Notes under the pieces: model-generated | Databases searched by the model: none | What the model saw: the letters and a program-made list of their open reading frames with translations, nothing else | What the model was told of the DNA's origin: nothing | Origin: Thereva unica | Taxonomy: Eukaryota; Arthropoda; Insecta; Diptera; Therevidae | Reading direction: 5' to 3' | NCBI GenBank assembly: GCA_949987705.1 | Contig: CATLJY010000893.1 | Span: forward strand, 1-64,000 | DNA: 64,000 nt | Shown here: one piece after another, positions 2,958 to 61,366 of the stretch | How the letters are laid out: each line of letters starts with the position of its first letter | Position numbering within the stretch: the first letter of the stretch is position 1 | Position numbers and translations under genes: made by a program

Positions 2958-5900
2958 GTTAGTGGTTCAGTAGTAACAGCAGATGAGATGGCTGGAAGCG
3001 GGCTGCACGTTGGCGCCTTGGGTGTGATGGAGGGCAAAAGCGATTGCGCACCGAGCGACGACTGCGTAGTTTACTGCCGTTTTACCTTATTCGTGGTGTT
3101 TAGCATTTTTAGAAAAAATAGTTTTGAAAAAGGAAATTTTTTTTTTTTCTTATTTCACTTAGCAATCACTTCACAACTCGCAACCGTTTTGCAATATTTA
3201 TTGAAATTTAAAACAAACGAAAAAAGATTTGCAGACGGTTTACAAACTGCCTTAACTGCTCGAGTACACATGATAACAACTGAAGTGCCTGGAGTTGGGC
3301 TGGCAGTTTGCGAAATATGCTAGCTGACAACCTGCGTCTCCCATCAACCCTTCACAGTTCCCTCGAATCGAGCAAGAATTCTTTGGGCGCTGCGTTGTTC
3401 TTGGTACTTCATCCTTGCTAGTGGAGTGCCTTTAGAACCGGAAGGTATGTGGTTTTGTTAGCCTCGCATATAAAACTATCGTAATTAAAAACAGCAGATT
3501 TGGTTTCTTGAGCGTCCTCACTGGAGGCAAGCAGTTTTTTTTAGTTTTTCCATAAAATGTTCCACGAATAGTGCGGAAGAAAGAGTCCCACATACCAGAT
3601 ACGTTTATCAGAGTAAGGCATTTATACACTAGTAGATCGTTGACCCGTAAGCCCAACTATTCTGGCTCTGGTGAGTACCGCTTCGAGGGACTCTTTTAGG
3701 TGCCTCGTTGATGATGCCAGGCTCTACTACTCTTGTTCGTCTGATCAAAATTTTTCAAGATCTTTACGTCTTCCAAACATTTTCGATGAAATGAAATATT
3801 AAAAAGTTTTGCTTTAAGATTTTTGAGCCAATTTCTTTTATTATTCTGCCTGTGGAAGGATTTCTGCAGATATTTTCATTTACCTGCCTATTCAGCGCCG
3901 CTGAATTACTATTTGACACAACTCTGTGTTATTTTATAATGTTATATTGTTATTTGTCGTCGTAGAGTTTATTAGGACAATGGGCTTACTATTCAGCGCC
4001 GCTGAATTCTTTTTGTTTGGTACTTCCTCTACCTCGGACGTCATTTTTCCGTACATTCTTCTCTTGTTGGACTCTTTACGGGTAAAATTGTTTAAATGAC
4101 GTGGTAAACGATGGCTATTTCCACAAAGATAACGTCACTTTTTAATTCAATTAAGCTCTTCTTAAAATGCATTTTCAAAATAAAAATTTTCACTATAATC
4201 GTTTATTAAGTAGATGAAATTGGCATCTAGAAATTTTCCTTTTGTCAAAATGTCGGAGAAAACATTTTTTTCCCACTGACAATTCTATCTCCTCTTTTCT
4301 GTGGATAGCAATTTCCCTTTTAGAAATTATTAAGCACATCTCCATTCGCCAGAAACAAATCCGTCTGCTTATGAAACATAATATATACGAAGCTTCAATT
4401 CCGTATGGCAAAAAGATATGCTACAAGGCATATCATTCCCAGGCACAATGATAGGAAGACCTTTGTTTGTTTTTTGCTGATAAATTCCTGTGCTAAGCCA
4501 CATCCTCCGGCTGTCATATGGCATAGCAAGAATATTTGGAGAATCATATCCTTCTGGAAAATTCCCTTAAATTAATATATTTCTGCAGAATTATGTATTA
4601 TATATTTATCCTAAGTATTCCAGCACTGCACAAATGTCATTGGCTCCATTAAAGGACGAAACAAAAAAAGAAAATAATAAATTGCATTCTGCAGGCTTCC
4701 ACAGGAGAGCAAGGAGATCCAACGTTGCCAGGATAATGTCAAAATGCTATGACGTCTAATAGGGCTAATTCGTTTTGCTTAAGCTGCTCCTGCTCTCTGC
4801 CGTATATTAATGACGTTTTAACTTAATAATCCAGGTGAAAAGTTTCAGCGAAATTCTCCTGTAATAAAGAACAACTTGAGATAAGCTCAAGGGACAAGAT
4901 AAATTCGTCGTTATCGTTCCGTACTAAAAATTTCCATGCAAGATAATCTCCATTTTGTGATCTTGAAAATTTCCATGGCAGAGTGAAAGTTTGCCAGTAA
5001 GAAAAAACGAGAAAAAATAGACGGGGAACGGCAGAAAGAATCCTTAAATCCTTGCAAAATTAAGTAAAATACTGGAAAACGGGCAAGACGCCGGCGACAT
5101 CCTTAATAGAAACAAAAAGGCGAGTTTAATATGGAAACTTTGCGCATTTCTAGCGAGGAGAACGCATTTAACAAATTTCCTTTATTATATATTAGAGGAA
5201 GCCAAAAAAAAACCCCAAAAAAAATGGTGGAAGAGCTCGTCTCAAGCTCGAGAAAGTTTCCTTCGTCCTTCGTTTTTGTACGGCGGCGGTGGTGGTACAG
5301 GACTAGCGTCGATGACGGTGCCAGAAACTTGCTGGAGCTCCTCTCAACTTTTCGTCCAAGAAATCATCATCGATTTCTGAAAATATTCTGTTTGGCAGGA
5401 AGTCATAAATTTGTGTGCTGAAGTCAGGCAGGTCCTTACACTTTTCGGTAGGGACTCTCTGTGTTCGAGCAAGGATACGATCGGAAAGTACACAGGCACC
5501 CGAAAGTGAGATAACACGGAGCGGAGGAAACCGGAAAATGATAATTTTCTTATGAAAATATGAAGTCAAAGTGATGATGTAATGCTGGTAGTGGAGCAGT
5601 TTGCGTTGAGCGATGTCTTCTGAATATTAAACAGATAAAATTTGGAAAGTAGAAAACATAGAGAACATAGAGAATGTGCAAAAGGAGCACTCGAATGCTG
5701 GGGACGAGTATTACTTAAGTTGTGTGCTATTTGGGAGAAAAGGTCGATATTAAAAACGATTTTCTGAGGGGGTTAATTATGGCGGAGGGGATCCTTGGCG
5801 ACCAGCTGCTTGTTATTTGGGGTGTCGATATTGATGTAAAAGGGAAACTCGTCAATTTTCAAATAAAATGGTTTTTTTTGCTTATTAATTTATTTTAATA

Positions 5901-6431
5901 CAATTTTTCCATGAATGCTGTTACTTATTTTTTCAATAAAATATTTGCTTTCCATAAGACAAATTACAAGTTCTATGATTGCGGCTTGAAGTGGGCAAAA
6001 CCTGTGACCTCCTTATGGAGAGCTATGGATAGTTGTAGCGAGTGTGGGACACTATATTCCCGCATACTGGCAACTGGCTGGGATTACCACATTGCCACGA
6101 GACCTAGAACAGAGCCTCGGATAGGACCATGATTTACGAGCTCTCGTGGATTGTAAGGGCACTTTACTAACCTGGTAAATATACATGCCTCGATTGAAGA
6201 TTCGGCATAATAAGAAGGATATGCATTCTATGAAACCCTAGCCAGAACGCTAAGAAACTCTCCTAGTAATGACCTTAAAATGGCCATAGGAGATGAAAAT
6301 TCGGAAATCGACCAATTATAGGGTTGCAAGCAAATAAAAACAGTATGAGACTGATCGGTTTTGCGATGATGATATTGTGATCAGACACGAGACTCGTACA
6401 CGGCCATCGTAAGTCCCGTAAAAACCACAGT
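2958..6431. other. Unannotated AT-rich DNA
   Basis: Several open frames of 60-110 codons occur on both strands (for example 2988-3323, 5131-5421 and the complement of 5303-5569), but none shows a domain or a convincing splice context. Apart from the paired palindromes at 3890-4007 I see only ordinary AT-rich sequence. Confidence 0.4.
3890..4007. repeat. Two identical 17-bp palindromes 101 bp apart
   Basis: ATTCAGCGcCGCTGAAT occurs at 3890-3906 and again at 3991-4007. Each is a perfect 8+8 palindrome around a single C. Sequence between them is AT-rich and unrelated. They could be protein-binding sites or relics of a duplicated element end. Confidence 0.7.
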
Positions 6432-13824: not shown

Positions 13825-15286
13825 CTACAACACTGTAATTCGGTTCCTGGCTAATGCCTTCCAGTTGCGTACGCCTAACTTTACTAAATCTTCCTCAACG
13901 GAGTCCATTTATCGCTTTTTTGGTCGACCTGAATTTCGCTTTCCATCAGGAATTCGATTCAACGCTATTTTTGCGGGGTCGCTATCGTCAAGCCTTTGTA
14001 CGTGTGCCACCCATCGCAATCTACTTAATTTTATACTTTTGACAATGTCGGGTCCCCGGTACAGTTGGTATAATTCGTGATTATATCTCCTTCTCCATTC
14101 ACCGTTTTCGCAGACACCGCCAAATATTGTACGTAGAATTTTTCTTTCAAAAGTGCCTAGAAGAGTTTCATCAGCCACTTTCAAAGTCTATGCCTCTGAT
14201 CCAAACATCAGAACGGGCTTGATTAGCGTGGTATATAGTTTACACTTCATTCCTCTAGACAAAATGCGTGATGTAAGATGTTGTCGAAGTCCAAAATAGC
14301 ATCTGTTAGCAACGTTTATTCTCCTTCTGATCTCCGTTGTCTCACCACTGTCAGCTTGCAATACGGTTCCAAGATACGTAAATTCTTTAACGGTTTCTAT
14401 ATTATTTGCATCTATGGTGATATTTTGTCTTGGAGTTGCGTATCTTTTTGAAGTACAAAGATACTTAGTTTTTGCTTCGTTGATGAGCAATCCCATCTTT
14501 TTCGCAGCTGCTTCCAGTTTGATGAAGGTTTCTTTCACACTCGCAAACGACCTACCTATCAGAGCGACATCATCAGCATAAGCCATCGTTTGTGTTGACT
14601 TGTTAAAGATGGATCCCGTTGTTTCTACCCCAGCGTCTCTCACCACCTTCTCCAACACTATGTTAAATAGGAGGCATGACAGCGCGTCATCTTGTCTCAG
14701 GCCTCTCTGTGATATGAAACTATCTGAGAGGTCTCGTTCAACTCGTACTCTGCATCGTACTACCTCGATTGTAGCTTTTGTTACTTCGATTAGGTGTTTT
14801 GGAAATCGGAAGCACTCCATAGCTTTAAATAACTCCTCACGCTTGACGCTGTCATATGCCTGCTTGAAGTCTATAAACAGTACGTGAATATTGATGTTGA
14901 ACTCCCATGATTTTTTCAAAAATTCTTCTTAGAGTGGAAATATGGTTTGTAGTGGACCTACCTGGTCGAAAGCCACATTGATAACTACCTATTATGCCTT
15001 CTGCGATGGGTAGAAGTTTTTTGTATAAAATAGTGGACAGTACTTTATACGCTGAGTTGAGGAGGGTAATACCCCTATAGTTCTCACAAACGAGTTGATC
15101 TCCTTTTTTATGCAGGGGGCATATCACACCTTCCGTCCATTCAAGTGGGATCTTTTTCTGACGCCTGATCGATTCTATAAGTTTATGTAATCCATTCCTT
15201 AATTCTTGGCCCCCATATTTCCACATTGCTATGCTATCTTTTCCTGGGGCTTTATTGTTTTTGAGATTCGTCATAGCTTCTTGTAC
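13825..15286 (-). pseudogene. RTE-1 reverse transcriptase domain
   Basis: Reading 5'-3' on the minus strand: NNKAPGKDSIAMW, then CPLHKKGDQLVCENYRG, IDFKQAYDSV (catalytic Asp), GLRQDDALSCLLFN, YADDVALIGRS (catalytic pair), and the C-terminal GRPKKR/MDSVEEDL region typical of RTE. Defects are an extra A in an A-run near 14912-14917 (frameshift after RRIFEK), a TAG replacing the usual Trp near 14185 (SEA-stop-TL), and a TAA near 13906. The usual RQGD motif reads RQDD. The frame ends at about 13825. It is the 3' half of the element whose endonuclease lies beyond the inserted transposon. Confidence 0.88.
15283..15286. repeat. Target-site duplication GTAC (left)
   Basis: GTAC directly abuts the left end of the DNA transposon and is repeated at its right end. 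Only one GTAC is needed to keep the interrupted RTE-1 frame, which confirms a 4-bp duplication (TGTAC, 5 bp, is possible but makes the inverted ends start out of register). Confidence 0.85.
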
Positions 15287-15905
15287 ACTGTAAAAAATTT
15301 ATCTAAATTTGCAAAAATTTTCGTAGCAAATTTTAACCTGATTTTATAGTATAAATCCGATGTTGTGTATAAATACTGCAAAGAGAGTAGTAAACTCAAA
15401 TTTTCATCGAAAATTACTGAAATACTTGAAAATAACAAAGGCATTAAGAGATATTACAATAATCCGCGCTGATGATTTACGTTGCGCAGTGAAATTTACT
15501 TAGAAAAATGAAAATTTTACATAGGACAGTGTACTTTCCGCGTTCTTTTGCAGCGTATCTTGAAATTTTACAAGAAAGTGTAAATTTTGTAGGGCTAGGC
15601 GTCTTTGCTTTAGCTTTAGATAATATACATCTGGATGTATGTATTTGTGTCATCAAGTCTTGTATTTTTACTAGCGGTAGGGCAAAATACTACATTCACC
15701 ATGACAAATTTACTACAATACAAGTGTACTGTCCCACCCTTTTACTGCAATTTCCTACGAGAACAATTGTGAATTTTATCTACACGCGCTTTTGTTTGTG
15801 CATTTATTTGAGGTTATTGCTCAAAGCGTTAGGATCTTAATCTCCAGGTGTTGAATTGTATTGTGCTTTTGGTGGGTTTTTAATTTTATTATTTTGTGTT
15901 TAAAT
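15287..15905. promoter_or_regulatory. Left terminal and subterminal region of the transposon
   Basis: Non-coding 619 bp between the left end and the transposase ATG. It holds several TTTAC/GTAAA words in both orientations (for example GAAAATTTTACAT, GAAATTTTACAAG and GTGTAAATTTTG between 15508 and 15590), similar to words near the right end. Such scattered motifs are usual transposase-binding sites; here that is inferred. The promoter of the transposase must lie here or outside the element. Confidence 0.5.
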
Positions 15906-18458
15906 ATGTCATTAGAAAGTGTTACATGCAACTTGTGTGAGAGAAGCTTTGGAGATGTAATAGCTTATACTAAACATCAATATATTCATCGATTTAATGC
16001 AAACTGCGCATTTCGGTGCAAAATTCCAAAGTGTGGCAAAGTTCTTTCAAATTACAATTCGTTTAATTCTCATTGTACTCGACTTCACCCGTATAAAGTA
16101 GCCGTAAGAAGCCAGGAATATGAGTGTAAACAATCATTGTGTTCATTTCGCAGTAACTGCTGGGATAAAATGATTAAACACTTAACTTTGCATTTTTCTG
16201 ATAACGAGAAAGTGTTGTGTCCAATATGTTGTCAAATATTTCATTTGAGGACATCTTTTTTTAGTCATACTTTTAGGAAACATAAACAAGTGTTAAAAAA
16301 TCAAGATGATAATAAATCACGTTCCGCTTACAATAACTTAACTTCTCAAGAGAACCCTTCCCTAATTTGGGAAAATAAAGATGTTTCCCATTTTAATCAT
16401 ACAGACTACGCTTCATTGTTATTAAAACTCAAAGCGAAATATGGTCTTCCTGAAGAAGTTATTCAGTGCTTTCTAGGTGAATTTAAAAATTTTGCTGAGG
16501 CAACTTCTTCCTCTATTAAGAAAAGATTAAGAGACGTTTGCGAAAGATCAAACTGTAACCATTTTTCGAGTATTTCATTTTGCGATCTGGTTAATGTAGA
16601 TATCGAAAAAACCTTAAGTAATTTAAATTCTTCTTACAAACGGGTTTCGTACTTTAAACAAAATTTTGCATATGTTGGGCCTGTGGAAATATCTTTAGGG
16701 AAAAATCAGCTACATCAAGATTGCTCTTACTATTACGTACCTATTTTAAATAATTTACAAAATTTATTTAATGATGTAAATATTAGAAAACAATTTTTGA
16801 TGTCAAGGGAAAATAACCAGCAAAATTTCGAAGATTATAGAGATGGTAAAGTATACAAAAACATAAATTTTTTTCTTCAGGGTAGACGAATTGAAATTAT
16901 TTTATACCATGATTGTTTTGAAGTGTGCAATCCCCTTAATTCCTCCAAAGGAAAGCACAATCTCTTGGCAGTTTATTTTTCCTTAGGTAACTTGCTTCCT
17001 TTTTATCGCAATAAAATTCACAACTTACAACTAGTATTACTTTGTAAGCAAAAGCATGTGAAGTATTTTGGTATAAATAAGGTGTTTCATAGACTTGTAG
17101 ATGACTTATGCATTTTAGAAACTATAGGGATAAGTGTAGAAAACTTTGAAAGTTATATGAATATTAAAGGATCAGTTGTAGCAGTTGTTGCGGACAATTT
17201 AGGAAGTCATCAAATCGGAGGCTTCGTTGAAAATTTTAGTAATTCAAAGTACTTATGCAGATTCTGTTTTTTTTCAAAAGGAAATTTAGAGAATAATGAA
17301 CTTCTTCAGAAGGAAAAACGTACACCAGAAAATTATAAAACGACTATTGAATTTCTACTCAATCACCCAGATGAATCATCTGCGAATGGAATAAAAAGAG
17401 AGTGTCCTTTGAACCGTTTGCTGTATTTTAACGCTTGTAATCCGGGACTTCCTCCTTGTTGTGCACATGATCTTTTTGAGGGTATTTTTAAGGTGGACAT
17501 GATGTTAATTATTAATTATTTTATTGAATCACAAGTGTTTTCATTTGATTTTCTAAATATGAAATATAAAGCGGTTGCCAAGAAAATAAATAAAGGAGTA
17601 TGTTTTCCATATATTACACAAGTTAATAAGAAGCTCCCTGGAACCGCTTACGAAAATTATTACTTTGTTATACTTTTTCCATTAGTCATTCATGGAAAGG
17701 ATTTTGACCTTGAAAGCAATGTTTGGAATATGTTCCTTTCACTTTTACAGATATGTCGTTTAGTATGTTCATCAAAAATTAGTTTAAGCCAGACTGACTA
17801 TTTAGCTTTCTTAATTCAAGAGTATTTTAAATTTCGCCTAATGGCATTTCCTGAAGCGCGCTTCTTACCTAAGCATCATTACTTAGCACATTATCCTAGT
17901 TTAGTCAAGGAATTTGGGCCATTAGTTCACATGTGGACTATGCATTTTGAACATAAACATCAGTACTTTAAGAACATAATACATAAAGCAAAAAACTTTA
18001 AAAATGTTCCAAAACTCCTTTCAGAGCGACACCAGCTTTTACAGGCATCATTACATAATGATAGGTTTCCGCTAGAAATATTGGCTGACAGGGCTGAACC
18101 ACTTTCCAATGAAATGTTGGATTATCGGCTAAATAATTTTGTTTTTACTACAAAATGCATTAATATAAGAGGAACAGAATATAAAGTTAATGATGCAGTT
18201 ATAATTGAAGTTGATGAATTGTTTTGTATAAAGCTGGTAAAAATAGAACACATTTTTATCGACACAAATTATACGGACGCTTGCTTTTTTGGAAAAACTG
18301 GTAAAATGGTATATAATTACAAAGAAGGTGTTTATGAAATATATGAAGATTTCAAAAAATATGAGTACGTTCTTTATAAGGATTTAAAAAATCAGCTTTG
18401 TTGTAAACTGTACAACGCACACGATCGAATTTTATTTTCTCCACCTTCGGCTCTCTAA
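15906..18458 (+). CDS. Candidate zinc-finger DDE transposase (~850 aa)
   Basis: Probable cut-and-paste transposase. The start is the ATG at 15906; the open frame extends 45 nt upstream but only from a TTG. Four C2H2 fingers fill residues about 5-130: CNLCERSF...H-x3-H, CKIPKC...H-x4-H, CKQSLC...H-x3-H, CPICCQIF...H-x4-H, presumably binding the element ends. The core shows candidate catalytic Asp336 (YHDCFEVCNPLNSSKGKH), Asp430 (ADNLGSH), a CxxH motif at 518-521 (PPCCAHDLFEG) and Glu682 (WTMHFEHKHQYFK). This order, with a long gap before the Glu, resembles the RNase H-fold transposases of hAT/KDZ/P type. PKHHYLAHYP precedes the Glu block. The frame is uninterrupted and intronless. The accessory gene starts 188 bp downstream. 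Residue roles are inferred from pattern, not from an alignment. Confidence 0.82.
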   Translation: MSLESVTCNLCERSFGDVIAYTKHQYIHRFNANCAFRCKIPKCGKVLSNYNSFNSHCTRLHPYKVAVRSQEYECKQSLCSFRSNCWDKMIKHLTLHFSDNEKVLCPICCQIFHLRTSFFSHTFRKHKQVLKNQDDNKSRSAYNNLTSQENPSLIWENKDVSHFNHTDYASLLLKLKAKYGLPEEVIQCFLGEFKNFAEATSSSIKKRLRDVCERSNCNHFSSISFCDLVNVDIEKTLSNLNSSYKRVSYFKQNFAYVGPVEISLGKNQLHQDCSYYYVPILNNLQNLFNDVNIRKQFLMSRENNQQNFEDYRDGKVYKNINFFLQGRRIEIILYHDCFEVCNPLNSSKGKHNLLAVYFSLGNLLPFYRNKIHNLQLVLLCKQKHVKYFGINKVFHRLVDDLCILETIGISVENFESYMNIKGSVVAVVADNLGSHQIGGFVENFSNSKYLCRFCFFSKGNLENNELLQKEKRTPENYKTTIEFLLNHPDESSANGIKRECPLNRLLYFNACNPGLPPCCAHDLFEGIFKVDMMLIINYFIESQVFSFDFLNMKYKAVAKKINKGVCFPYITQVNKKLPGTAYENYYFVILFPLVIHGKDFDLESNVWNMFLSLLQICRLVCSSKISLSQTDYLAFLIQEYFKFRLMAFPEARFLPKHHYLAHYPSLVKEFGPLVHMWTMHFEHKHQYFKNIIHKAKNFKNVPKLLSERHQLLQASLHNDRFPLEILADRAEPLSNEMLDYRLNNFVFTTKCINIRGTEYKVNDAVIIEVDELFCIKLVKIEHIFIDTNYTDACFFGKTGKMVYNYKEGVYEIYEDFKKYEYVLYKDLKNQLCCKLYNAHDRILFSPPSAL

Positions 18459-18646
18459 GTAGGGTTGATACATTTGTTCGAGCTTCTCAACAGCACAATT
18501 TTTATATTACACTTTTTACTGACATTTAGTTATTGGGATAAATTAATAAATTGTTAATGCAAGTTACTACCAAAAAATCAAGCCATTGTTAACTGTTGTA
18601 AAATACTACATAGATACAGTATATTAACGTAAACATACCAGCCATT

Positions 18647-20455
18647 ATGGAGAATGAAAAAACTGCTGTCTTTAAGATATGGAATATTAATCGCACGGAG
18701 AAGAAAATGGTTATTTCCGAGTTCTCGATTCAAGCAATAATCAAAGCAGGTGATTGTTTTTCATTTTTTATGTTTTTTATAACATATTTTACTATTTTTT
18801 ATTTACTCTACTAATAATTATCTGTTTAATTTTAGCTAATTTTAAAGGAATGTTTGGTTCCAAACTTGTTTTGGAATCTGATGGCAGCGTCATTGATGAA
18901 GATGAAATTCTAAAATTTATCAAAGATTCGCCATTTATTTTAATGGAAGAGGATGAAACGTGGACGCCTGTTATATCACAATCCTCTGCATCCTTACCTT
19001 CTACATCTAATGCAGATAACCAGCTTGAAAATACTAGCGATATTATATATTACACCCTACCATCAGAACACTCAATGTCTTCCGAAAGTGGATCAGATCT
19101 GTCATTATCAACAACTTTGAGTATGACCAGTGGGGTGCTGTCTGATTCTGATAACGAAAATATTAACATCGCCGTAAAAAACACATTCGACAAATTTCGT
19201 ATTCCGTGGGAAAAATTCCCCAAGACAGTGAACAAAATGTGTGAAAAGGGCGAAAAATTAGGACCACATCTGAAAACTGTGATACATATTCTTGTGGACG
19301 AACTAAGAACCTTTTCAACATTCATTCCTGTACAAGTTTTTCGCAATACGGTTAATCAGCTGGTACAGAGATATCCAAAATCGTTCTCCTTTAGTGATAC
19401 CGCCGGCAATACAATTTCTGTTAAACATTCTCCTCTTATAACGTCACTCATACACAGAAATAATTATTTGAATAGACCATCAAAAAGTCGGGGAAACCCT
19501 TTGAATATACCACTTGCAAATCTCCAAAAAATTTCAGGCAACTTGTTCAAATTGGGCTGCTTGCGAAAACGAAGAAGAAGAAGATATAGATGTAACGTTT
19601 AAAAAGAACAAGCTGATTAGATTAAGTTCACAGAAGACATTTTCTACTGGAGAATACGTAGAAATAGAAGAAAATATGGATTTTTGTTATCCCTATCAAA
19701 GAAAATTCTTAAATAACCTTGCCGTCAGTCCTTCTTTAAAGGATGTTAAGAAGGAATGGCCCTTTTTATTGCAAAAAGACTTTATTTTCAAACATTTTCG
19801 GAAATTGACTTCAACTGATGTGAAAGAAGTTTTGGATACATTCGACGCATCTATTAACAAAATAATTAAATATGGAGAGCAAAACAGGGCAAAGCTAATG
19901 TTACATATTAAACAAACTGACAGAAGCAATGTATATTCAACAGCTATTGCATTTTTATGCAAATTTTTCAATGAAGATGAGACTATAATTTTTAAACTTT
20001 ACCCTGTAAGTACAAGTCTTATTGTAAATTTAAAAATATAGACATTTTATGATTTTGCAGATTGGGACAACTTTTTCTGAAATTAAACCTCCGAAACCAA
20101 CGCCATGGTTTGCAATAGTTGGTATGTGCATTCACATTTCATAGATTTAAATTTAAGTAAGAATAGTAATTCTAACTTTATTCTAGAAACCGGTGATAAT
20201 ACAATTTATTATTTGTTTACTGACAATGAATTGGTAAACTCGTCATCGATGAATTTTAAGGAAGCTCTTACTCAAGCTTTTTGTCTGTACTTTATTTTGA
20301 ACATCGAATATCCGAAGGAAGTGTCGCAAATATATGAATTCTTGCAAAGATTTATTTTTGGAAACTATTCAGATGGCAGTAGGGGAAAGAAAACCAGTAT
20401 AACTGCGATGTCGAAAGTTATTAGATTAGTAGCTAACATCAAAAACTTTAAATAG
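18647..20455 (+). CDS. Spliced transposon accessory protein with N-terminal CIDE-N-like domain
   Basis: Four exons are inferred: 18647-18749, 18836-20005, 20061-20121 and 20187-20455, with GT-AG introns of 86, 55 and 65 nt (donors GTGATT, GTAAGT, GTATGT; a TTCTAAC branch-like site in the last). The first about 80 residues read as CIDE-N: AVFKIWNINRTEKKMVIS, then SKLVLESDGSVIDEDEIL and ILMEEDETWTP, matching that fold's strand/acidic-loop/strand pattern. A Ser-rich linker follows, then a helical block (WEKFPKTVNKMCEKGEKLGP...VQRYPKSF) and a C-terminal block ending LNIEYPKEVSQIYEFLQRF. The summed exon length leaves one nucleotide too many, and the frame changes between about 19501 and 19570 (an A-run at about 19527 is likely), so this copy has one apparent frameshift. 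From memory the helical and C-terminal blocks resemble SAMD3-like transposon-linked proteins of fish. Its role is unknown; a partner for transposase assembly is a guess. Confidence 0.72.
18750..18835 (+). other. Intron 1 of the accessory gene
   Basis: GTGATTG to TTTTAG, 86 nt, very T-rich. It joins ATAATCAAAGCAG to CTAATTTTAAAGG, fusing two halves of the CIDE-N-like domain in one frame. The conserved-looking domain only appears after this splice, which is the main support for the intron. Confidence 0.75.
20006..20060 (+). other. Intron 2 of the accessory gene
   Basis: GTAAGTACAAG to TTTTGCAG, 55 nt, phase 0. It removes an in-frame stop at about 20039 and continues with ATTGGGACAAC. Confidence 0.75.
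20122..20186 (+). other. Intron 3 of the accessory gene
   Basis: GTATGTGC to TTATTCTAG, 65 nt, with TTCTAAC about 15 nt before the acceptor. It removes an in-frame TAG and joins PTPWFAIV to ETGDNTIYYLF. Confidence 0.7.
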
Positions 20456-21406
20456 TTCATTAATATGTGTATGTGTACTTATAACCGTTATTTTTAAAAG
20501 TGGTATAAGTTTGATTTTTTGCTTCCAAAATATCAAACCAAATCAAAAACCTCATAACATCTTATAACACATCAAAAACATCCAAAACATTCCAAAAACA
20601 TATCATCTTGTAACTGAAAATGGCTTTAAAACAACTTTTTTTCCCCAAATTTGGATTTATGTACCTATACCACTTTCAAAAATAACTGCTTACAAAATTG
20701 CCGACATAGGCTACTAAAAAATGTTTAATAATTAGTCAAAGTGAAATATGTTGTATTTATGTATTTTAAATCCTTTGTCAACAAATACGTAAAACGAGTA
20801 TGTTTATGTAATGTCCTATAACAATAAATACATATCTTCGATTAATGAATTTATTAAATTACGTATACACACTATAAATATATTCAAGATTAACTTTAAA
20901 ATAAAATGTAAATATAAAAGCTTTGTTTGATCAAAAACTTCTTGTTAAAAGGATAGGCTACTGAAGTATAAGTCCAATTTTTGTTTGTTTTGATAATTTT
21001 CTAAAAATAAATCATCTCGTAACTGAAACTGGCTTTAAAATTTTTTCTTTTGAGCTACATTTTTTTAAACTCATTTCAATTTAAGGGTAACTTTCCCACA
21101 AATGGATGGGAATACATTCACAGAGGAGTATACTAAAATTACGTCTTGCCGTGTAAACTATTTCCCGCTTGTGAATGCAATTTTGCCATTGGTAAAGTAA
21201 TATTCGTCTTCTGATTAGTTTTTTTACACTTGCAACTGGAAAGCAAATCTATTGCGATGGTAATTTTACCACGGTTATGGAAATGGTTTACAAGTTGCGT
21301 TGTAATTGTACATTTGAAGTGTAATTTTACAGTGCGTTTGAAAATTACAGCTTATAGAGTAGGCGTTTAATTGCCTACATTTAATGTAGTAAATTTTTTT
21401 TACTGT
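20456..21406. promoter_or_regulatory. Right non-coding region of the transposon
   Basis: No gene. AATAAA at 20823-20828 could end the accessory transcript. A direct repeat (ATCTTGTAACTGAAAATGGC at about 20604 and its near copy at about 21013) and an inverted pair around 20484-20507 and 20663-20690 (TTATTTTTAAAAGTGGTATA) are present. The last 250 bp before the end carries several TTTTACAGTGCG/GTAATTTTAC words, probably binding sites for the transposase. Confidence 0.5.
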
Positions 21407-21410
21407 GTAC
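21407..21410. repeat. Target-site duplication GTAC (right)
   Basis: This is the second copy of the GTAC that flanks the two-gene transposon; beyond it the RTE-1 frame resumes with codons for the PTMDDV segment. Confidence 0.85.
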
Positions 21411-22490
21411 GTCGTCCATTGTAGGGACATCACTTTCATTAGCAGCACCAGTATCACTATCATTATTGGTTGGTGCGTTTCTATTTGTTTGATTCACATC
21501 ACTTTCACTCTCATTTTCGTCGCCTCTATTCAGTAGCTCATTAAAATACTCCCCCCATCTTTCTAAAACCTCTTGTTTTTGGCTCAGGATATTACCGTTT
21601 TTGTCCTTACACATCGATACTCTGGGTTTAAACTCTTTACGTTGCTTGTTCACTTTCTCATATAACTTTCTCACTTCGTTATTATTCCCGAGTTCGTTTA
21701 TCTCTACAAATTGTTCCTCCAGCCACGTCTTCTTTTTTCTTTTGTGCGTACGTTTTTCTAGTCGTCGTTTTTCCTTATAGGTCGCTACGGAATTTCTAGT
21801 TCCATATCTTTGCAGCATATTAGTATATGCTTCATTCTTATCTTTCGTTACTCTAGCGCACTCTTCGTCGAACCAGTCTTGACGTCTTGCTCGTCTTTCA
21901 TAGCCTAGCTTGGTTGCAGCGGCTTCCTTTATTATGGTACTTAGTTTTGCCCATTCCTCATCAATATTGGCATCGATACTTGTAGCTTCGTTATTCGATG
22001 TACCGAACCTTCTATTTAGCTCTGCTACATATTCTTCCCTTATTTGTTCTTCGTTGAGGGCCGCGGTATTATATTTTCGCTCGCTTTGTTGTATCCTTCC
22101 TCCTGTCCTAACGCACGAAATCCTATCTCTTATCTTAGCACCCACCAGAAAATGGTCTGAGTCCACGTTTGCTCCACGGTACGTTCTAACATCTATTATG
22201 CTGGAGCTGTACCTTGTACTAATAAGTATATGGTCTATAGCATTTACCGTCTCCTCATTAGGAGATTTCCAGGTTACTCTATGTATTCTTCTGTGTTCGA
22301 ATTTCGTGCTAGCCACTATCATGTTAGCTCCAGCATCGAAGTCCACCAGTCTACGACCATTATCATTGCACTCAGGATGTATACTGTGCTTTCCAATGGT
22401 TGGGTAATAGATTCGTTCCTGCCCTACTTTTGCGTTAGCGTCTCCTATAATTACTTTTACATCATACCTGGGACTTAAGGACAATCAATG
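21407..22490 (-). pseudogene. RTE-1 endonuclease and linker domain
   Basis: This is the endonuclease/exonuclease/phosphatase-fold part of the RTE-1 ORF, in an open minus-strand frame. VKVIIGDANAKVG holds the catalytic Asp-x-Asn block, NAIDHILIS the substrate-contact block, and VDSDHFLVGAKI the SDH catalytic end. The linker continues to RWGEYFNELLNRGDENE and stops at the transposon junction. The first strands, including the usual NVRTL and QETKW motifs, are missing at the 5' side, so the nuclease could not be active. The frame joins the reverse transcriptase at 15286. Confidence 0.87.
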
Positions 22491-46548: not shown

Positions 46549-49500
46549 CTATGGGAAGGAGGCATAGTTTGTAATAGGCCTTTTACAAATTGAGTCCTTG
46601 GTCTTTATCGATGCGACGCGAACCAAGTTGTCAGAGCCTTCGTGCGTTTCTATAACTCGACCAAGCAACCATTTACACGGTGGAAGATTTTCCTGTTTAA
46701 TCAGCACCAAGTCATCCTTCTGCAAATTCCTCGTTTGAACATTCCATTTTGGACGCTGTTGTAGTTGCGTCACATAATCATTTTGCCAACGTCTCCAAAA
46801 CGACTGCATTAATTGCTGTATGTATTGCCAGCGAGTTAAGCTATGTTCCTTGTGGTTCAAATATGATGGTTCTGGAATTGACAATATCGGTGCTCCAATT
46901 AAAAAGTGCCCAGGAGTTAACGCCGTCAGATCTGAAGGATCACTTGTAACTGGACACATAGGCCGCGAATTAAGACAAGATTCGATCTGTGTTGTTAATG
47001 TGGTGAGCTCCTCGAATGTTAACGAACTGTTGCCTATAATTCTTCGTAGATGGAATTTCGTGGATTTTACAGCGCTCTCCCAAATTCCGCCAAAGTGTGG
47101 TGCTCCTGGTGGTATGAGGTGCCAGTTTATTCCTTGGTCTAACACATTCGGGAGTTCCTCCTTGAGCTGGTGTAAGTGCCTTCGGAAATCCTTCTCCAGC
47201 ACAGCCTTCGCGCCTACAAAATTTGTTCCGTTGTCGGAATACATATCGCTGCATAATCCGCGACGTGCAGTGAATCTTTTGAACGCAGCTAAAAATGCAT
47301 CAGTCGACAAATCAGATACAACCTCTATATGTACCGCCTTAACTGCCAAGCATACGAAGATCGCCAAATAACATTTGTATTTTTTTGCATTTCTCAGTTT
47401 CGAGGATTTGATGTCCATTGGTCCACAGTAATCAACTCCTACGTGACTAAATGGTCTGGAGATGTTGGTTCGCGGTGCTGGTAAACTCCCCATCAGCTGG
47501 CTACAACATTCAGCTCTTTGCCTAAAACAAATCATACACTTATGAATGCGTGCTCTAACTGCGCTTCGAGCTCTTAATATCCAGTACTCTCGCCTTAATA
47601 ATCCAAGCACTAATTGAGGCCCCCCGTGAAGAGTGATTCTGTGCATATCATCGATGATTAAGTCCGTGATGTGATGTTGACTTGGCAGGATAATCGGATG
47701 CTTTTCGGTCCAGGAGATGTTAGCATTTTGTAGTCTGCCCCCTACTCTAAGCACACCCATGTGGTCGATAAATGGATTTAGCTTCAATAGTCGTCCCGAA
47801 GAGGGTTTTCCATTTGAGGAAAGGTGCTTCAAATCTTGATGAAATTCCTGTGCTTGCACTTGTTTGATTATAACTTTGTGTGCTTTGTCCAATTCTCGAG
47901 ACGTCAACCATTTCGTTATGTTCGGTCCCTTGTTTGATTTGCATCGAGTAATAAACCGCAAAACATACGCGATAACGCGAATAAGCTTTCGAAGTGACGA
48001 ATATCTACAGATGTTCAGGCCGGAACTTGTTGGTTCAGTGGTTGTATTTAAATTGACCTTTATGGTGCGCATTTCCACACCCGTGTCCGTTATATCCCTT
48101 AATGAGGGCCACTGTTCCTCCGGTTTTTGCAGCCACTGTGGTCCATTCCACCATAATTGATGCCTTATTGCTTCCGCTGGTAGTAGGCCTCTCGTTGCAC
48201 AGTCTGCTGGGTTCTCTTGCGTAGGGACGTGATTCCATGCCTCACTGCCACAAATTTCTTGCACCTCGGCTACCCTATTAGCAACAAATGTCTTATACTT
48301 ATTGGGATGATTTCTGAGCCACGCTAAAACAATAGTCGAATCCGTCCACGCTCGAAACTTGACATGAGTGAACTTCATAGCTTTAGTCACTGCTTTGTAC
48401 AATCGTGCTAATAATGCTGCTCCGCATAGCTCGATACGCGGTAGAGATATTTGCTTTATAGGTGTCACCTTTGTTTTTGCTGCCAGAATCGTCACGTTGA
48501 CATTGCCGGAAGAATAAATCGAGCGGGCATAAAGTACTGCTGCATATGCTTGCAAGGACCCATCACAAAACCCATGAATTTCGATTGCATCTGACGTAGT
48601 ACCTATCCATCGAGGGATCTTAATGTCCTTGATCATCTTGAATTGGTTACGAATTTCATTCCACACGCGAAAAATATCATTTGGAATCTCTTCATCCCAA
48701 TCAATGCCCTTTAACCAAATTGCTTGCATCATCATCTTTGGTTTTATTGTGACTGGTGATAAAAACCCAAGGGGATCAAATATTTTTGAAACTTCGCTTA
48801 AAAATTTTCGTTTTGTGATTGTGATGCTGTCGCCAAATTCAATGTCAATGTTGTACTTAAATACATCCAGCCTAGGGTACCAATGCATTCCTAAAGTTTT
48901 TACCCTTTCGCCGAAATCGAAATTACGAATGCCGCTTAATTCCTTATCTTCGTCAGGAATGTTAGCTAGTAGTTCGGGTCTATTCGAAGCCCATTTACGA
49001 AGATTAAACCCACCGGCCTTTAAGAGTTGTATAATCTGGTCTTGTAATTTCTGAGCACTCTCGATGGAATTAGTCCCGGTTAACATATCATCGACATAAA
49101 AATCGGAAAGTGTTATGCGAGATGCTAGAGGATAACGTTCACTTTCATCTCGCGCCAGCTGTTGCAAGGTCCGAACTGCTAAATACGGTGCCGACGATGT
49201 GCCGAAGGTAACTGTTTTCAGCCGATAATCTTGAATAGGTGCGCTTGGTGATTTTCGCCAAAGTATTCGTTGATAATCCGCATCATCATCGTGCACCCAA
49301 ATCTGCCTATACATTTTTTCGATGTCGGCAGTCAAGACAACTTGATGTTTCCTCCATCGTAGCAATAGTGTCATTAGGTCATCTTGTAGAGTTGGTCCGG
49401 TCATAAGAACTTCGTTGAGGCAGCATCCATTCGCCGTTCTTGAAGACGCGTCGAATACCACGCGGAGTTTCGTCGTCGAACTTTCCTTAAACACCCCGTG

Positions 49501-51738
49501 ATGGGGCAGATAATTTGTTTTATACCAAACTTGATTGCCATGGTTGACCTTTATGTTCTCCATTTCGGTTGATGGTGCTAATTCCATATGATTCAGCTCT
49601 AGGTATTCCTCCAAACACTTGGTGTATTCCAAACGTAGCTGCTCGTCTCTGTCGAATGCTAATTCCAGTTTCCTCAACCGTGACAGGGCGATCCATCGTG
49701 AACGGCCGAATTCTGGAGGTGAAGATGATCTAAACGGTAAGCGCACCATGTACCTTCCTCCTTCTGTCCTTTGTACAGTATCCTTGTAATGTTTTTCGCA
49801 CGCCTTCTCTTCTTCAGTCAAATACTTAACTGGTTGGACTTCCTCCAATTCCCAAAACCTTCTCAGTTGTTCATCTAGTGAGATCTTGCAATGGTATGAG
49901 GCGACTGTAGTTGTAAGTTTTGATTTTTCCTCGATTTCCCCAGAAAGTATCCAGCCTAAGATTGTGTTTTGAGCGATGGGACTGCCTTGTGTATCAACTC
50001 TTAGTCCGTTGAGTATTATTCTGCCAAGAATGTCTGCTCCTATTACCATGTCTATTTTACTTGATAAATTGTACGTAGGGTCAGCAAGGGTTAAGCCTTG
50101 AAGATGTTTCCAGGCGACATTCTTTCTTATAGCCCTGGGAGGCAATACGGTGCTTATCTGTTTTAAAACTAAAACGTTGGCGAGAAGTTTGCAATTATTA
50201 TGGAGTGAACGTAATTCAACAGTTGCTTGCGATTGAGCTACTCCCGTTTCGATATCCTCTAATCCTGAAATGGTTATGTTTACTGCACTGCTTGGTATAT
50301 GCAGTCTCCGTATGATAGACTCCTTTATGAAGGACGCTTGTGAACCTTGGTCGACCAACGCCCTTACGACCATGCTATGTCCATCCTTACCAACTAATTT
50401 CGCTAAGGCAGTTGGCAGTAACACTTCATTACCTATCGAAACGTTGCCTACATATACTTGACTTGAAGAAGGTACCGCGTCTGTGTCGCTTATTCTGCTG
50501 TCGCCCGATCCTTCGTTATTTGCATGAGTCACTCCAGCCCTTGCTTTTGAAGCGATCACTTCTTCATTATGCAACAACGTGTGATGTCGATGCCTACACC
50601 TGTAGCACGATGTTCTACTTGGACAATGTGAAGCGTTATGACCCTTTGCCAAACAGTTTGAACACAAATGTTTGTTAATTACAATATTCCTCTTTCCAGA
50701 ATGGTCCAGCTTTAAAAATTCCGGACAGTGCCAAAGTGGATGAGAAGCGGAGCACACAACGCACGAATATGATTTCACTGATTGGAAACTATGTTTAAAA
50801 GTTGACTGTCTTGATGTGGATACATTATTATTCCCCAAAGCTTCCAGAGCTCGAAATTGTGCTTCCAAGAACGTTCTCAATTCATCAAATTTAGGAAACT
50901 CACGTGTCGCACCAACCCTTTGCTCCCAGAGTTTCTTCGTATCAGGTGACAATCTTTCACTTACAATATAAGTGAGAATAACATCCCATTCCCTTGTAGC
51001 TATACCTAGGTTATTCAAGGCTTGAACACATTCGTTGGTAGTGTCCATCAGTTTTCGGATGCTTACTGCTGTATCCTTGCTGGCATACGATTGAGACAGA
51101 AGGATTTTAAGTTGAGTCTTTATCAACAGCCGGGGGTTATCATATCGATCTTGCAGAAGCTCCCAAGCTGACTTATAGTTTGCATCGGTGATGGTGAATT
51201 GTCGAAGAAGCTGTTCAGCTTCACCTTGCAGGCTAGATTTCAAATAATGTAGCTTTTGTACTTGTGATAAGGAATCGTTATTATGAATAAGAGTTAAATA
51301 TAAGTCATAGAATGCCTTCCAAGATTTGTAATCACCATCAAATTTCGGCAGATTGATTCTGGGCAATTTAACTTCTTGCGAAACAGATTTCCTCTCACTA
51401 TTATTCATGGTAGAATTTAAGGTGGTGTTGGGCTCTTGACGAGAGTCCAAATCGTCTTCAAGTAGAGTTTTAAAATCTACCACAAATTCCTCAACCATTG
51501 AAAAATATTCTTCAACAAAATAAGTTTGAAGTGTTGCATCCAAATCGTTTGGGATATCTAGCACAATAATTTCGCGATGGGTTGTCATGAACGATTCCCA
51601 TTGTTCCTTCAACATGGCTAATTTATTCGAAATATATCTTGTGGTTTTTCGATCAGCACCGTCCTTTTTATAATTCCGTAGGGCACGTTTTATGTCAGTA
51701 AACGTGCCAAATTGTAATTTTATCAATTTTTTCAGCAT
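46549..51738 (-). CDS. Bel-Pao Gag-Pol polyprotein (1,729 aa)
   Basis: One frame encodes everything needed for copy-and-paste transposition through virus-like particles. In order: Gag with a DUF1759-type segment (LPKFDGDYKSWKAFYDLY, residues about 125-275); zinc knuckles (CSNCLAKGHNASHC, CYRCRHRHHTLLH, about 325-395); retropepsin-like protease with ALVDQGSQASF near 460; reverse transcriptase with TADIEKMYRQIW and YVDD at about 880; RNase H-like region (FCDGSLQAYAAVLYA, about 1055; WTDSTIVLAWL, about 1132); HHCC integrase zinc domain (about 1364-1405); integrase core with candidate Asp about 1434 (GVDYCGP), Asp about 1499 (YSDNGTNF) and Glu about 1550 (GGIWESAVK); and a C-terminal DUF5641-like tail. 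The YVDD box and integrase triad look intact. It starts at the ATG at 51738; no frameshift separates gag from pol and no envelope follows. Confidence 0.95.
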   Translation of the reverse strand: MLKKLIKLQFGTFTDIKRALRNYKKDGADRKTTRYISNKLAMLKEQWESFMTTHREIIVLDIPNDLDATLQTYFVEEYFSMVEEFVVDFKTLLEDDLDSRQEPNTTLNSTMNNSERKSVSQEVKLPRINLPKFDGDYKSWKAFYDLYLTLIHNNDSLSQVQKLHYLKSSLQGEAEQLLRQFTITDANYKSAWELLQDRYDNPRLLIKTQLKILLSQSYASKDTAVSIRKLMDTTNECVQALNNLGIATREWDVILTYIVSERLSPDTKKLWEQRVGATREFPKFDELRTFLEAQFRALEALGNNNVSTSRQSTFKHSFQSVKSYSCVVCSASHPLWHCPEFLKLDHSGKRNIVINKHLCSNCLAKGHNASHCPSRTSCYRCRHRHHTLLHNEEVIASKARAGVTHANNEGSGDSRISDTDAVPSSSQVYVGNVSIGNEVLLPTALAKLVGKDGHSMVVRALVDQGSQASFIKESIIRRLHIPSSAVNITISGLEDIETGVAQSQATVELRSLHNNCKLLANVLVLKQISTVLPPRAIRKNVAWKHLQGLTLADPTYNLSSKIDMVIGADILGRIILNGLRVDTQGSPIAQNTILGWILSGEIEEKSKLTTTVASYHCKISLDEQLRRFWELEEVQPVKYLTEEEKACEKHYKDTVQRTEGGRYMVRLPFRSSSPPEFGRSRWIALSRLRKLELAFDRDEQLRLEYTKCLEEYLELNHMELAPSTEMENIKVNHGNQVWYKTNYLPHHGVFKESSTTKLRVVFDASSRTANGCCLNEVLMTGPTLQDDLMTLLLRWRKHQVVLTADIEKMYRQIWVHDDDADYQRILWRKSPSAPIQDYRLKTVTFGTSSAPYLAVRTLQQLARDESERYPLASRITLSDFYVDDMLTGTNSIESAQKLQDQIIQLLKAGGFNLRKWASNRPELLANIPDEDKELSGIRNFDFGERVKTLGMHWYPRLDVFKYNIDIEFGDSITITKRKFLSEVSKIFDPLGFLSPVTIKPKMMMQAIWLKGIDWDEEIPNDIFRVWNEIRNQFKMIKDIKIPRWIGTTSDAIEIHGFCDGSLQAYAAVLYARSIYSSGNVNVTILAAKTKVTPIKQISLPRIELCGAALLARLYKAVTKAMKFTHVKFRAWTDSTIVLAWLRNHPNKYKTFVANRVAEVQEICGSEAWNHVPTQENPADCATRGLLPAEAIRHQLWWNGPQWLQKPEEQWPSLRDITDTGVEMRTIKVNLNTTTEPTSSGLNICRYSSLRKLIRVIAYVLRFITRCKSNKGPNITKWLTSRELDKAHKVIIKQVQAQEFHQDLKHLSSNGKPSSGRLLKLNPFIDHMGVLRVGGRLQNANISWTEKHPIILPSQHHITDLIIDDMHRITLHGGPQLVLGLLRREYWILRARSAVRARIHKCMICFRQRAECCSQLMGSLPAPRTNISRPFSHVGVDYCGPMDIKSSKLRNAKKYKCYLAIFVCLAVKAVHIEVVSDLSTDAFLAAFKRFTARRGLCSDMYSDNGTNFVGAKAVLEKDFRRHLHQLKEELPNVLDQGINWHLIPPGAPHFGGIWESAVKSTKFHLRRIIGNSSLTFEELTTLTTQIESCLNSRPMCPVTSDPSDLTALTPGHFLIGAPILSIPEPSYLNHKEHSLTRWQYIQQLMQSFWRRWQNDYVTQLQQRPKWNVQTRNLQKDDLVLIKQENLPPCKWLLGRVIETHEGSDNLVRVASIKTKDSICKRPITNYASFP

Positions 51739-52186
51739 TGCAAAAATATAACCGTCACCAAATAAGAATGAAATGACTCACCAAATTCTATTAATATCAG
51801 TCAAGGGGGAATTCTGCATCCGTTATAGCCGTTTTTATTGAACGGAACTTACTATTGTACCAAATTTTATATTCTAGTTTTCCACAAATTTCACGAGTAA
51901 TTTAATCCAAAATTCTATCACTAGTTTTCAAAATAATTCTTCTAATTAATTAATTGTCACCAACTCGCAAATCTCAAATTAATTCGCACTAACTCATGGA
52001 ATTTTTCACGCACGTGTCTTACAAGGGAATTTTTCAAATCTATAATTTTTCTGTTTATCACTTAATCGCGAACTTTAAATAAATTTGTCTCACTATTCTA
52101 ATTATTCACACGCGTGAATAGCACCTCACAGGTTAATTTTTCAAAACGTTTTTTATTTGTTTTTTATAATATATGTCTGCGCATAT
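51739..52186 (-). other. 5' leader of the Bel-Pao element
   Basis: AT-rich untranslated leader between the primer-binding site and the polyprotein ATG. I see no additional frame of note. Confidence 0.6.
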
Positions 52187-59632: not shown

Positions 59633-60810
59633 CTACAGCCCAAATCGAGCCTTGGCCTCCTCTAGGGCATTTCTCCAAGTTTGACGGTCTCTTGCAGCAT
59701 GTCTCCAGTTCCGGATGTTGAGCATTGACTCTGCGTCAGCCGTCACAGAGTCTATCCATCTCCTCCTGGGTCTACCTACTGGCCTACTTCCCGAAATTTC
59801 TGATGCCATAAGCCGTTTTGGGATGCGATTGTCCTCCATCCTGATCACGTGGCCGGCTAGTCTCAATCTGTTGATTTTTATGAAAGTTGAGAGTTGTGGG
59901 TCGTCAAAAATTTCATACAACTCGTTGTTGTATCTTCTTCGCCATATTCCATCCTCTCTGATTGGGCCTATTATGCATCTGAGAATTTTCCTCTCAAACC
60001 TGTTGACTCGTTCCTCTATGTCCTGGGTCATAGTCCAAGTCTCGCTACCATAACACAGTACTGGTCGTATTACTGTTTTGTAGAGTGAGAGTTTCGTTTT
60101 CCTGTGTACAAATCTTGAGTGCAGGATTTCTTTTTTTGGCATAAAAGGCTCTATTAGCCAGTAGTATTCGTCTGGTTATTTCTTCTTTTTCTTCGTTTCT
60201 TTTTGTGATAGTAGACCCAAGGTAGACTGTTTTATCGACTACTTCTAGGTTATGTTCGTCGATGGTTATATTTCTTCCCATTCTAAATCGTCCTGCTCTG
60301 GATTGTTGCATCACCTTCGTTTTTTCTTCGTTAATCTTCAGGCCTATGTCCTTTGCCGCCTCTTTTAATTCAACATAGACTTCTTTTGCTGCCAAAAAGG
60401 ACCTTCCCACGATGTTTACGTCATCCGCATATCCAAGTAATTGTACCGACTGGGTAGCTATTGATGCACTTCGCTGGACTGACGTTTTCCTTATCACCCA
60501 TTCTAGGGCCAGGTTGAAAAGCATGGGGGCCAGCCCATCTCCTTGTCTAAACCCTTGACGTACTTCGAACTCCTCTGTTACAACATTTTGGATCCTTACT
60601 TTCGCCAGTGAGCTGTTTGTGGCGCATTTGATTAGTTGTACCAACTTTAAGGGGACTCCTATTTCCGATAAGATCTCGTATAGCCTCTCTCTGTTTATTG
60701 AGTCATATGCCTGTTGAAAGTCGACAAATATCTGGTATACATACATTTACATTCCTTTCCCAGGTTTTCTCCAGAATTTGCCTTAAGGTCAGCAGTTGGT
60801 CCGATGTTGA
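59633..60810 (-). pseudogene. RTE-2 reverse transcriptase, 3' part
   Basis: Contains SDQLLTLRQILEKTWERN, then a small frame disruption (a 4-nt GTAT repeat near 60745), VDFQQAYDSI, GFRQGDGLAPMLFN, YADDVNIVGRS with both catalytic Asp, and the C-terminal block ENRIPKR...GRPRRRWIDSV ending ARFGL. A second frameshift lies in an A-run near 60140 (after FYAKK). The catalytic residues are otherwise intact, so the lesions look recent. It joins the 5' part at the solo LTR. Confidence 0.9.
60806..60810. repeat. Target duplication GTTGA of the solo LTR (left)
   Basis: GTTGA at 60806-60810 and 61367-61371 flanks the insert. One copy suffices to restore the RTE-2 codons for NRSTSDQLL. Confidence 0.8.
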
Positions 60811-61366
60811 TGTAGCAGTCGCTACTTGTATATACGCGTTTCGTTGTAATAAGTTTTATTCAAGTATCGATTCAGTTTCTGTACTGTAATAATTTCGAGT
60901 ACAGTGTTTTTGGTTACGTCATAATTTGGATTCTCGCTACTACTATTAAATACACTTGGGGAATTTGGATTGTCATATCACGTATGTATACACTGTACAC
61001 AGAAACAATTTTAAAAACATAGCCACACAAATATTGTGATATTAAAAATTATTTTGAATTTTTGTAAGAGTATTAGTTAGGAGTTTATTCGATAAGGAAG
61101 TCTCCTATAATAAGTTGTATAATTAAAAACCGTTATGTAATTTTCGGTGTGACATAATAAAAAATAGAAAAAATCTTAAACTATTAAAATCTAAAACTAT
61201 TAAATATAATAATAGATAAATGTTAAATAAACGTATTAAATAAAAGAATAATATTAATATAAAATATGTGAAGAAAAAGTTTTTATTGGCAATATATATA
61301 CATATATCACTTATATATTGCAATGAGATGAGGGAAGACGCAGAAATTAGTACGTCCCCCATTTCA
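60811..61366. mobile_element. Solo LTR, 556 bp, inserted in RTE-2
   Basis: Begins TGTAGCAGTCGC and ends CCCCATTTCA, giving the TG...CA termini of an LTR, with a 5-bp GTTGA duplication. It has no coding frame of its own. It is unrelated in sequence to the 811-bp Bel-Pao LTR. The likely origin is recombination between two LTRs of a former complete element. Orientation was not determined. Confidence 0.75.

Follow-up and report, generated by a model that had tools for sequence, protein, structure and literature searches.

A CIDE-N-headed partner protein encoded beside the transposase of a probable CACTA/EnSpm-type transposon in Thereva unica

The stretch analysed here (the window) comprises positions 1 to 64,000 of the forward strand of contig CATLJY010000893.1 in the Thereva unica assembly GCA_949987705.1, and carries on its plus strand a two-gene DNA transposon of 6122 bp (15286..21407) that sits inside an RTE-type element reading on the minus strand. 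The left terminal inverted repeat, CACTGTAAAAAA (15286..15297, plus strand), is matched at 11 of 12 bases by the right repeat, CACAGTAAAAAA on the minus strand (21396..21407); the right end of the transposon reads TTTTTTACTGTG, so that the termini are CACTG...CTGTG. Comparison of the flanks with empty sites identified the two copies of a TA target duplication (15284..15285 and 21408..21409). When the flanks were joined on a single TA, they matched 272 places in the genome (139 + 133) with at most 3 mismatches, and all 100 empty sites among the matches listed had 0 mismatches; because the same search with a reversed flank join as control gave 0 genome matches, we regard the boundaries as exact and the duplication as TA. 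The first-pass annotation had recognized the element at 15287..21406, one base short on each side. The RTE-type host element (13909-15283 and 21410-22484, minus strand; labelled by eye and from the first-pass annotation) is highly abundant, since its 32-base insertion site alone accounts for the 272 assembly matches.

Gene 1 encodes the transposase, a protein of 850 aa, in a single open exon (15906..18458, plus strand). It begins with four C2H2 zinc fingers, as had been read at first pass (aa 8-126, 15927..16283, plus strand; starts at aa 8, 38, 74 and 105), followed by a predicted RAG1/Transib-like core (aa 165-726, 16398..18083, plus strand) and a predicted BAH-like C-terminal domain (aa 724-844, 18075..18437, plus strand). 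The core had been described as D-D-CxxH-E-like; an alignment of 55 sequences corrects this order to D336, D430, C451xxC454, H658xxxH662, E682, with every one of these residues invariant in 55/55 sequences except H658 (54/55). Structure modelling predicts that the core folds like RAG1/Transib. Transposase_21 is matched at E <= 0.01 by 21 of the 55 aligned sequences (best 7.5e-7), the window protein itself not being among them, and all Transposase_21 matches seen in singly scanned proteins score under the curated cut-off of 28.6. The homologues seen include one from Hydra. In Ceutorhynchus assimilis the gene model of protein P0088 joins a gene 1-type transposase to macroglobulin MG2/MG3 domains, which is likely a model error, or else a fusion. 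BAH domains read chromatin, so a predicted tail of this type on a transposase with a RAG1 fold hints at a connection to chromatin, for which the PHD finger of RAG2 offers a comparison.

Gene 2 follows on the plus strand, and all of its introns are predicted from sequence. Exon 1 (18647..18749) encodes the first half of a CIDE-N head, which is interrupted by a predicted 86-bp, phase-1 intron (18750..18835), and predicted exon 2 (18836..20005) supplies the second half of the head (to about 18967), a Ser-rich linker and a conserved core. Predicted exon 3 (20061..20121) was placed by splice sites and homology; predicted exon 4 (20187..20455) ends in the stop codon, and its C-terminal part resembles a related family, B, described below. 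Exons 1 and 2 join in frame into the CIDE-N head, and the spliced start of the protein (first 251 aa) matches Pfam CIDE-N (PF02017) at 30.8 bits (E 3.2e-7), over the curated cut-off of 23.5 bits, bearing out the earlier reading of this domain. A 537-aa read-through of gene 2 scores 29.1 bits, and exon 2 alone scores 21.5 bits, under the cut-off.

The same pairing of genes recurs across the genome. We examined the best 30 of 56 gene 1 matches as loci L026-L055 and scanned them for CIDE-N heads with a profile built from six heads, so that the six families contributing to it match by construction. At 18 of these 30 loci gene 1 is followed by a head in the same orientation, corresponding to 17 places (L042 and L046 are one place), and a separate gene 2 genome search places a gene 2-type partner after gene 1 in the principal families. 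L030 and L032 are identical with a common flank and may be one insertion. With exact ends and the same gene order at 17 places, the first-pass view that the two genes belong to one element stands. Besides the window's head, the spliced heads of B, C, L042, L045 and L039 score 35.2, 14.7, 26.4, 24.6 and 31.4 bits against CIDE-N. Compared with solved structures, the six-head profile finds CIDE-A best (1.1e-8), followed by CIDE-B, CIDE-3, DREP2, DREP4, DFF45 and DREP3; it also scores a few unrelated chains at E <= 1, the best being 9k9w at 0.0012.

Eight further genome copies of the first 301 transposon bases were found for the window's own family, at 90-99% identity. By blastn, seven of them (L017-L023) retain parts of both ends and have lost the middle: L017-L019 span element bases 1-853 plus 4477-6122, L020, L021 and L023 span 1-718 plus 4593-6122, and L022 is shorter. 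These are two deletion types, with three copies apiece in differing flanks. The eighth, L024, shows 5' parts only within the 2.8 kb examined by blastn. TA is present at both ends in six of the eight, L022 and L024 being those that lack it. The first-pass annotation had pointed to a genome-wide search for copies sharing the ends and gene pair, and this recovered the gene pair in several families, but no second copy of the window's own family with a full gene 2 was found in the assembly.

Family B has moved recently. In an ungapped comparison its six copies differ by 0-4 bases; the 4553 bp compared take in gene 1, the sequence for the CIDE-N head and the greater part of gene 2's long second exon. 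Their five distinct 5' flanks mark independent insertions. The 412-aa gene 2 exon is open in 6/6 copies. The termini of the copy L027 are CACTC...GAGTG, with TT on both sides (the family B 3' end was read in L027 only), and TT, CA and TG beside the 5' end show that the family also inserts at non-TA dinucleotides. When B is compared with C, gene 1 has a pN/pS of 0.201/0.673, gene 2 one of 0.218/0.673 and the CIDE-N segment one of 0.221/0.723. Constraint on the head is thus similar to that on the transposase, although a pS near saturation leaves these ratios rough. The palindromic 10-mer GTAAAATTAC occurs five times in the family B terminal regions (L027, L056), where the highest 10-mer count in 300 shuffles was 3, and it is a candidate binding site for either of the two proteins. 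Repeats near the ends of the window family are not above shuffles.

The first-pass annotation gave no named superfamily for such an element. Its termini, its 2-bp duplication, the CxxC/HxxxH signature, the Transposase_21 matches (21/55) and the predicted RAG1/Transib fold now place gene 1 likely in the CACTA/EnSpm (CMC) group. Both the window family and L027 have CAC...GTG termini, their duplications (TA in the window, TT/TT in L027) fall within the 2- to 3-bp range of the group, and gene 1 has the order D, D, CxxC, H(3-4)H, E that is a signature of the transposase (PMC12730594). Like plant En/Spm, with its TNPD and TNPA, and animal EnSpm, the present elements have CACTN-type termini, an apparently tnp2-related transposase with CxxC and HxxxH between the second D and E, two proteins and, in family B, subterminal repeats; they differ in the CIDE-N-headed partner, the four N-terminal C2H2 fingers and the predicted BAH-like tail, and the window family differs further in that its end repeats do not exceed shuffles. 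SmTRC1 and its relatives (TRC, animal CACTA) appear to share a Transposase_21-related transposase, and a Hydra relative has a 2-bp duplication, but TRC termini are given as beginning CCC in PMC1636069 whereas ours begin CAC, and we rejected TRC membership. ESTA, Mirage, Chapaev and Transib (within the CMCT group) have in common with our elements CA..TG termini, CxxC plus H(3-4)H and a RAG1-like fold, and ESTA has TA duplications as well; Mirage, Chapaev and ESTA were compared by described features, and family B also uses non-TA sites. A Pfam scan of the 537-aa gene 2 read-through detected no DFF-C, nuclease or RAG2-type domain. This separates the element from ProtoRAG/RAG1-RAG2, its partner beginning instead with CIDE-N, and a DFF/DREP nuclease system was likewise rejected. 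The resemblance to DREP/DFF/CIDE proteins lies in the CIDE-N with its acidic second half and, for four families, in the intron position of a host DREP2-like gene, whereas the remainder of the protein is a transposon partner core. The passages that targeted searches of open-licence PMC papers turned up describe no CIDE-N-bearing transposon.

That intron position bears on where the head came from. Searched exon by exon, the genome yields 15 CIDE-N matches at E <= 1, a lower bound since family C, L039 and L045 were missed; 10 lie in the transposon group and 5 in the host. Over the cut-off are the six B copies, the window's copy and all 5 host matches, the latter apparently in three host CIDE genes; below it are C429, C1:76.8 Mb and C2:61.8 Mb. 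For the window's copy, B, C and L042 the colinear splice choice predicts a phase-1 intron in one codon, with alternative joins possible in the window's copy, B and C, including phase-0 joins in the case of C. A pair of host exons, C1:131607302 (L061) and C1:131753634 (L060), has a phase-1 junction at the same aligned codon; they lie 146 kb apart in the right order and strand, and we take them as one gene because they are jointly close to DREP2. In a further host gene (C5) and in L039/L045 the introns are phase 0 and lie at other positions; the third host match has no intron in the head. A gene 1 tree of 37 rows separates the two intron types: the window's copy, B, C and L037 lie inside a 9-row group (100/98), whereas L039, L045 and L041 form a group of their own (100/100) within a half of the tree that has weak support (89/87) and also contains rows from fish, sea cucumber and tick. 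L048, L051 and L054 make up a separate group. The predicted phase-1 intron that four families have in common with the host DREP2-like gene suggests that the head was captured from a host CIDE gene of this type, intron included. Intron types and tree together fit host capture, perhaps twice, though a single ancient head with later intron change may account for them. The proposal made at first pass, that a transposon recruited CIDE-N, is supported by the CIDE-N scores, the exact ends and the pairing across families.

In other animals the first-pass annotation pointed to similar gene pairs in fish and cnidarians. Gene models in one fish (P0043, Coilia grayii) and one sea cucumber (P0086, Apostichopus japonicus) do continue past the transposase into a protein resembling that of gene 2, whose core matches the core found in this genome over 274 columns (probability 99.8, E 7e-29), and these models are likely annotation chimeras that hide a two-gene structure. 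Their partners have another head, weakly SAM-like in the fish, and Pfam scans found no CIDE-N in them. For cnidarians, PMC7642931 reports an enrichment of CIDE-N in two species of Hydra and of DUF4218 in Hydra viridissima, which hints that the transposase/CIDE-N pairing may extend to this group.

What the partner does we infer by analogy. The idea raised at first pass, that the head may serve to assemble transposase complexes, is plausible. In the mechanism we favour, the oppositely charged faces of CIDE-N heads would join the partner proteins into head-to-tail chains, as in DREP2, DREP3 and DREP4, and these chains would help assemble the transposition machinery, the partner acting as TNPA does beside TNPD in maize En/Spm by bringing the ends and the transposase into one complex. 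In the first 36 residues of the six heads the K/R:D/E counts are 6:2, 5:3, 5:4, 6:1, 8:7 and 8:5, and in the next 26 residues 3:7, 2:9, 2:7, 3:8, 3:7 and 2:9, so that the first half is more basic than acidic, and the second half acidic, in 6/6 heads. According to PMC8647176, the DREP3 CIDE domain forms head-to-tail helical filaments through a basic face (Lys122, 132, 145, 149) and an acidic face (Asp162, 165, 167, 168, Glu170), and the mutant D167R no longer assembles; PMC1636069 states that En/Spm requires TNPA as well as TNPD. On the strength of this charge pattern, the DREP3 filaments and the need for TNPA, we favour a scaffold, and give roughly even chances to a cut-and-paste CACTA/EnSpm-type transposon whose gene 2 head polymerises the partner and so gathers transposase and transposon ends. 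The fuller account is more tentative and on balance doubtful: that a RAG1-fold CACTA lineage captured a host cell-death CIDE domain, perhaps twice and with its intron, and uses it to form filaments of the partner on which the assembly of the transposition complex depends, relatives in other animals using a different head for the same job.

The head might instead be aimed at the host, binding a CAD/DFF-type nuclease or its inhibitor and blunting the DNA fragmentation that follows transposition double-strand breaks. The CIDE domains of DFF40 and DFF45 pair with each other, the host has about three CIDE genes, one with the common intron position, and for a betabaculovirus CIDE_N gene PMC5245865 calls interaction with host DFF proteins conceivable. 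Most viral CIDE_N versions in that paper are only 91-111 aa, however, while here CIDE-N takes up little of a protein some 530 aa long, and the core of that protein has homologues among partners with no recognised CIDE-N, so that the gene 2 protein likely has another job, and we consider a host-manipulation factor unlikely. A regulator or anti-silencing factor, resembling TNPA at the Spm promoter and merely concentrated by CIDE-N, seems to us similarly hard to favour: TNPA restores activity to a methylated promoter and represses one that is unmethylated (PMC1636069), and gene 1 carries the predicted BAH-like tail, but gene 2 yielded no recognisable DNA-binding or chromatin domain, which is weak evidence given the poor core model. 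A third reading, in which gene 2 is a host gene or passenger that has nothing to do with the transposase and is paired with it by chance, could be argued from the single full-length copy of the window's own family found in the assembly; the same order and strand at 17 places, the six near-identical family B copies, the low pN/pS and the fused fish and sea cucumber models make it extremely improbable, and the multi-family pairing refutes it in practice.

Several observations weigh against the scaffold proposal and the pairing behind it, beyond the rough pN/pS ratios and the CIDE-N-free fish and sea cucumber partners. The window's own gene 2 is, as its sequence reads, broken, because a one-base frame change falls in the interval from about 19485 to 19540, which the homologue P0121 and family B cross in a single frame. 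The structure model of the gene 2 core is poor (pLDDT 60.7, pTM 0.33), so the role of the core is not readable from its fold. In the heads of C and L039 the first half comes close to charge balance (5:4 and 8:7), and the family C head falls under the Pfam cut-off, with a best match other than CIDE-N. No head was found in the sequence examined at 12 of the 30 loci, including L041, L044, L048, L049 and L051-L055, nor in a further 3.5-3.7 kb at L048, L051, L054 and C1:59.67 Mb (a locus outside the 30), so that not every relative needs a CIDE-N partner; at L034 and L043, also among the 12, gene 2 lies further off, and the position of L047 suggests that it is the front half of the element at L040. 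All within-species evidence for the pairing comes from one genome. L048, L049 and L051-L055 are distant transposases of the same genome with no visible partner gene.

Elsewhere in the window, an open frame of 1742 aa (46549-51777, minus strand) looks by eye like a BEL/Pao-type retroelement polyprotein, and two minus-strand segments (60045-62793 and 1702-2958) look like fragments of non-LTR reverse transcriptases.

CIDE domains are familiar from proteins of apoptosis and of lipid droplets, and a conserved, constrained CIDE-N in a mobile element would be a new setting for the domain. We know of no role for the second protein that animal CACTA elements encode. Because the mode of assembly of such a head is known, it offers a direct test of that role, and the near-identical copies of family B make the test practical.

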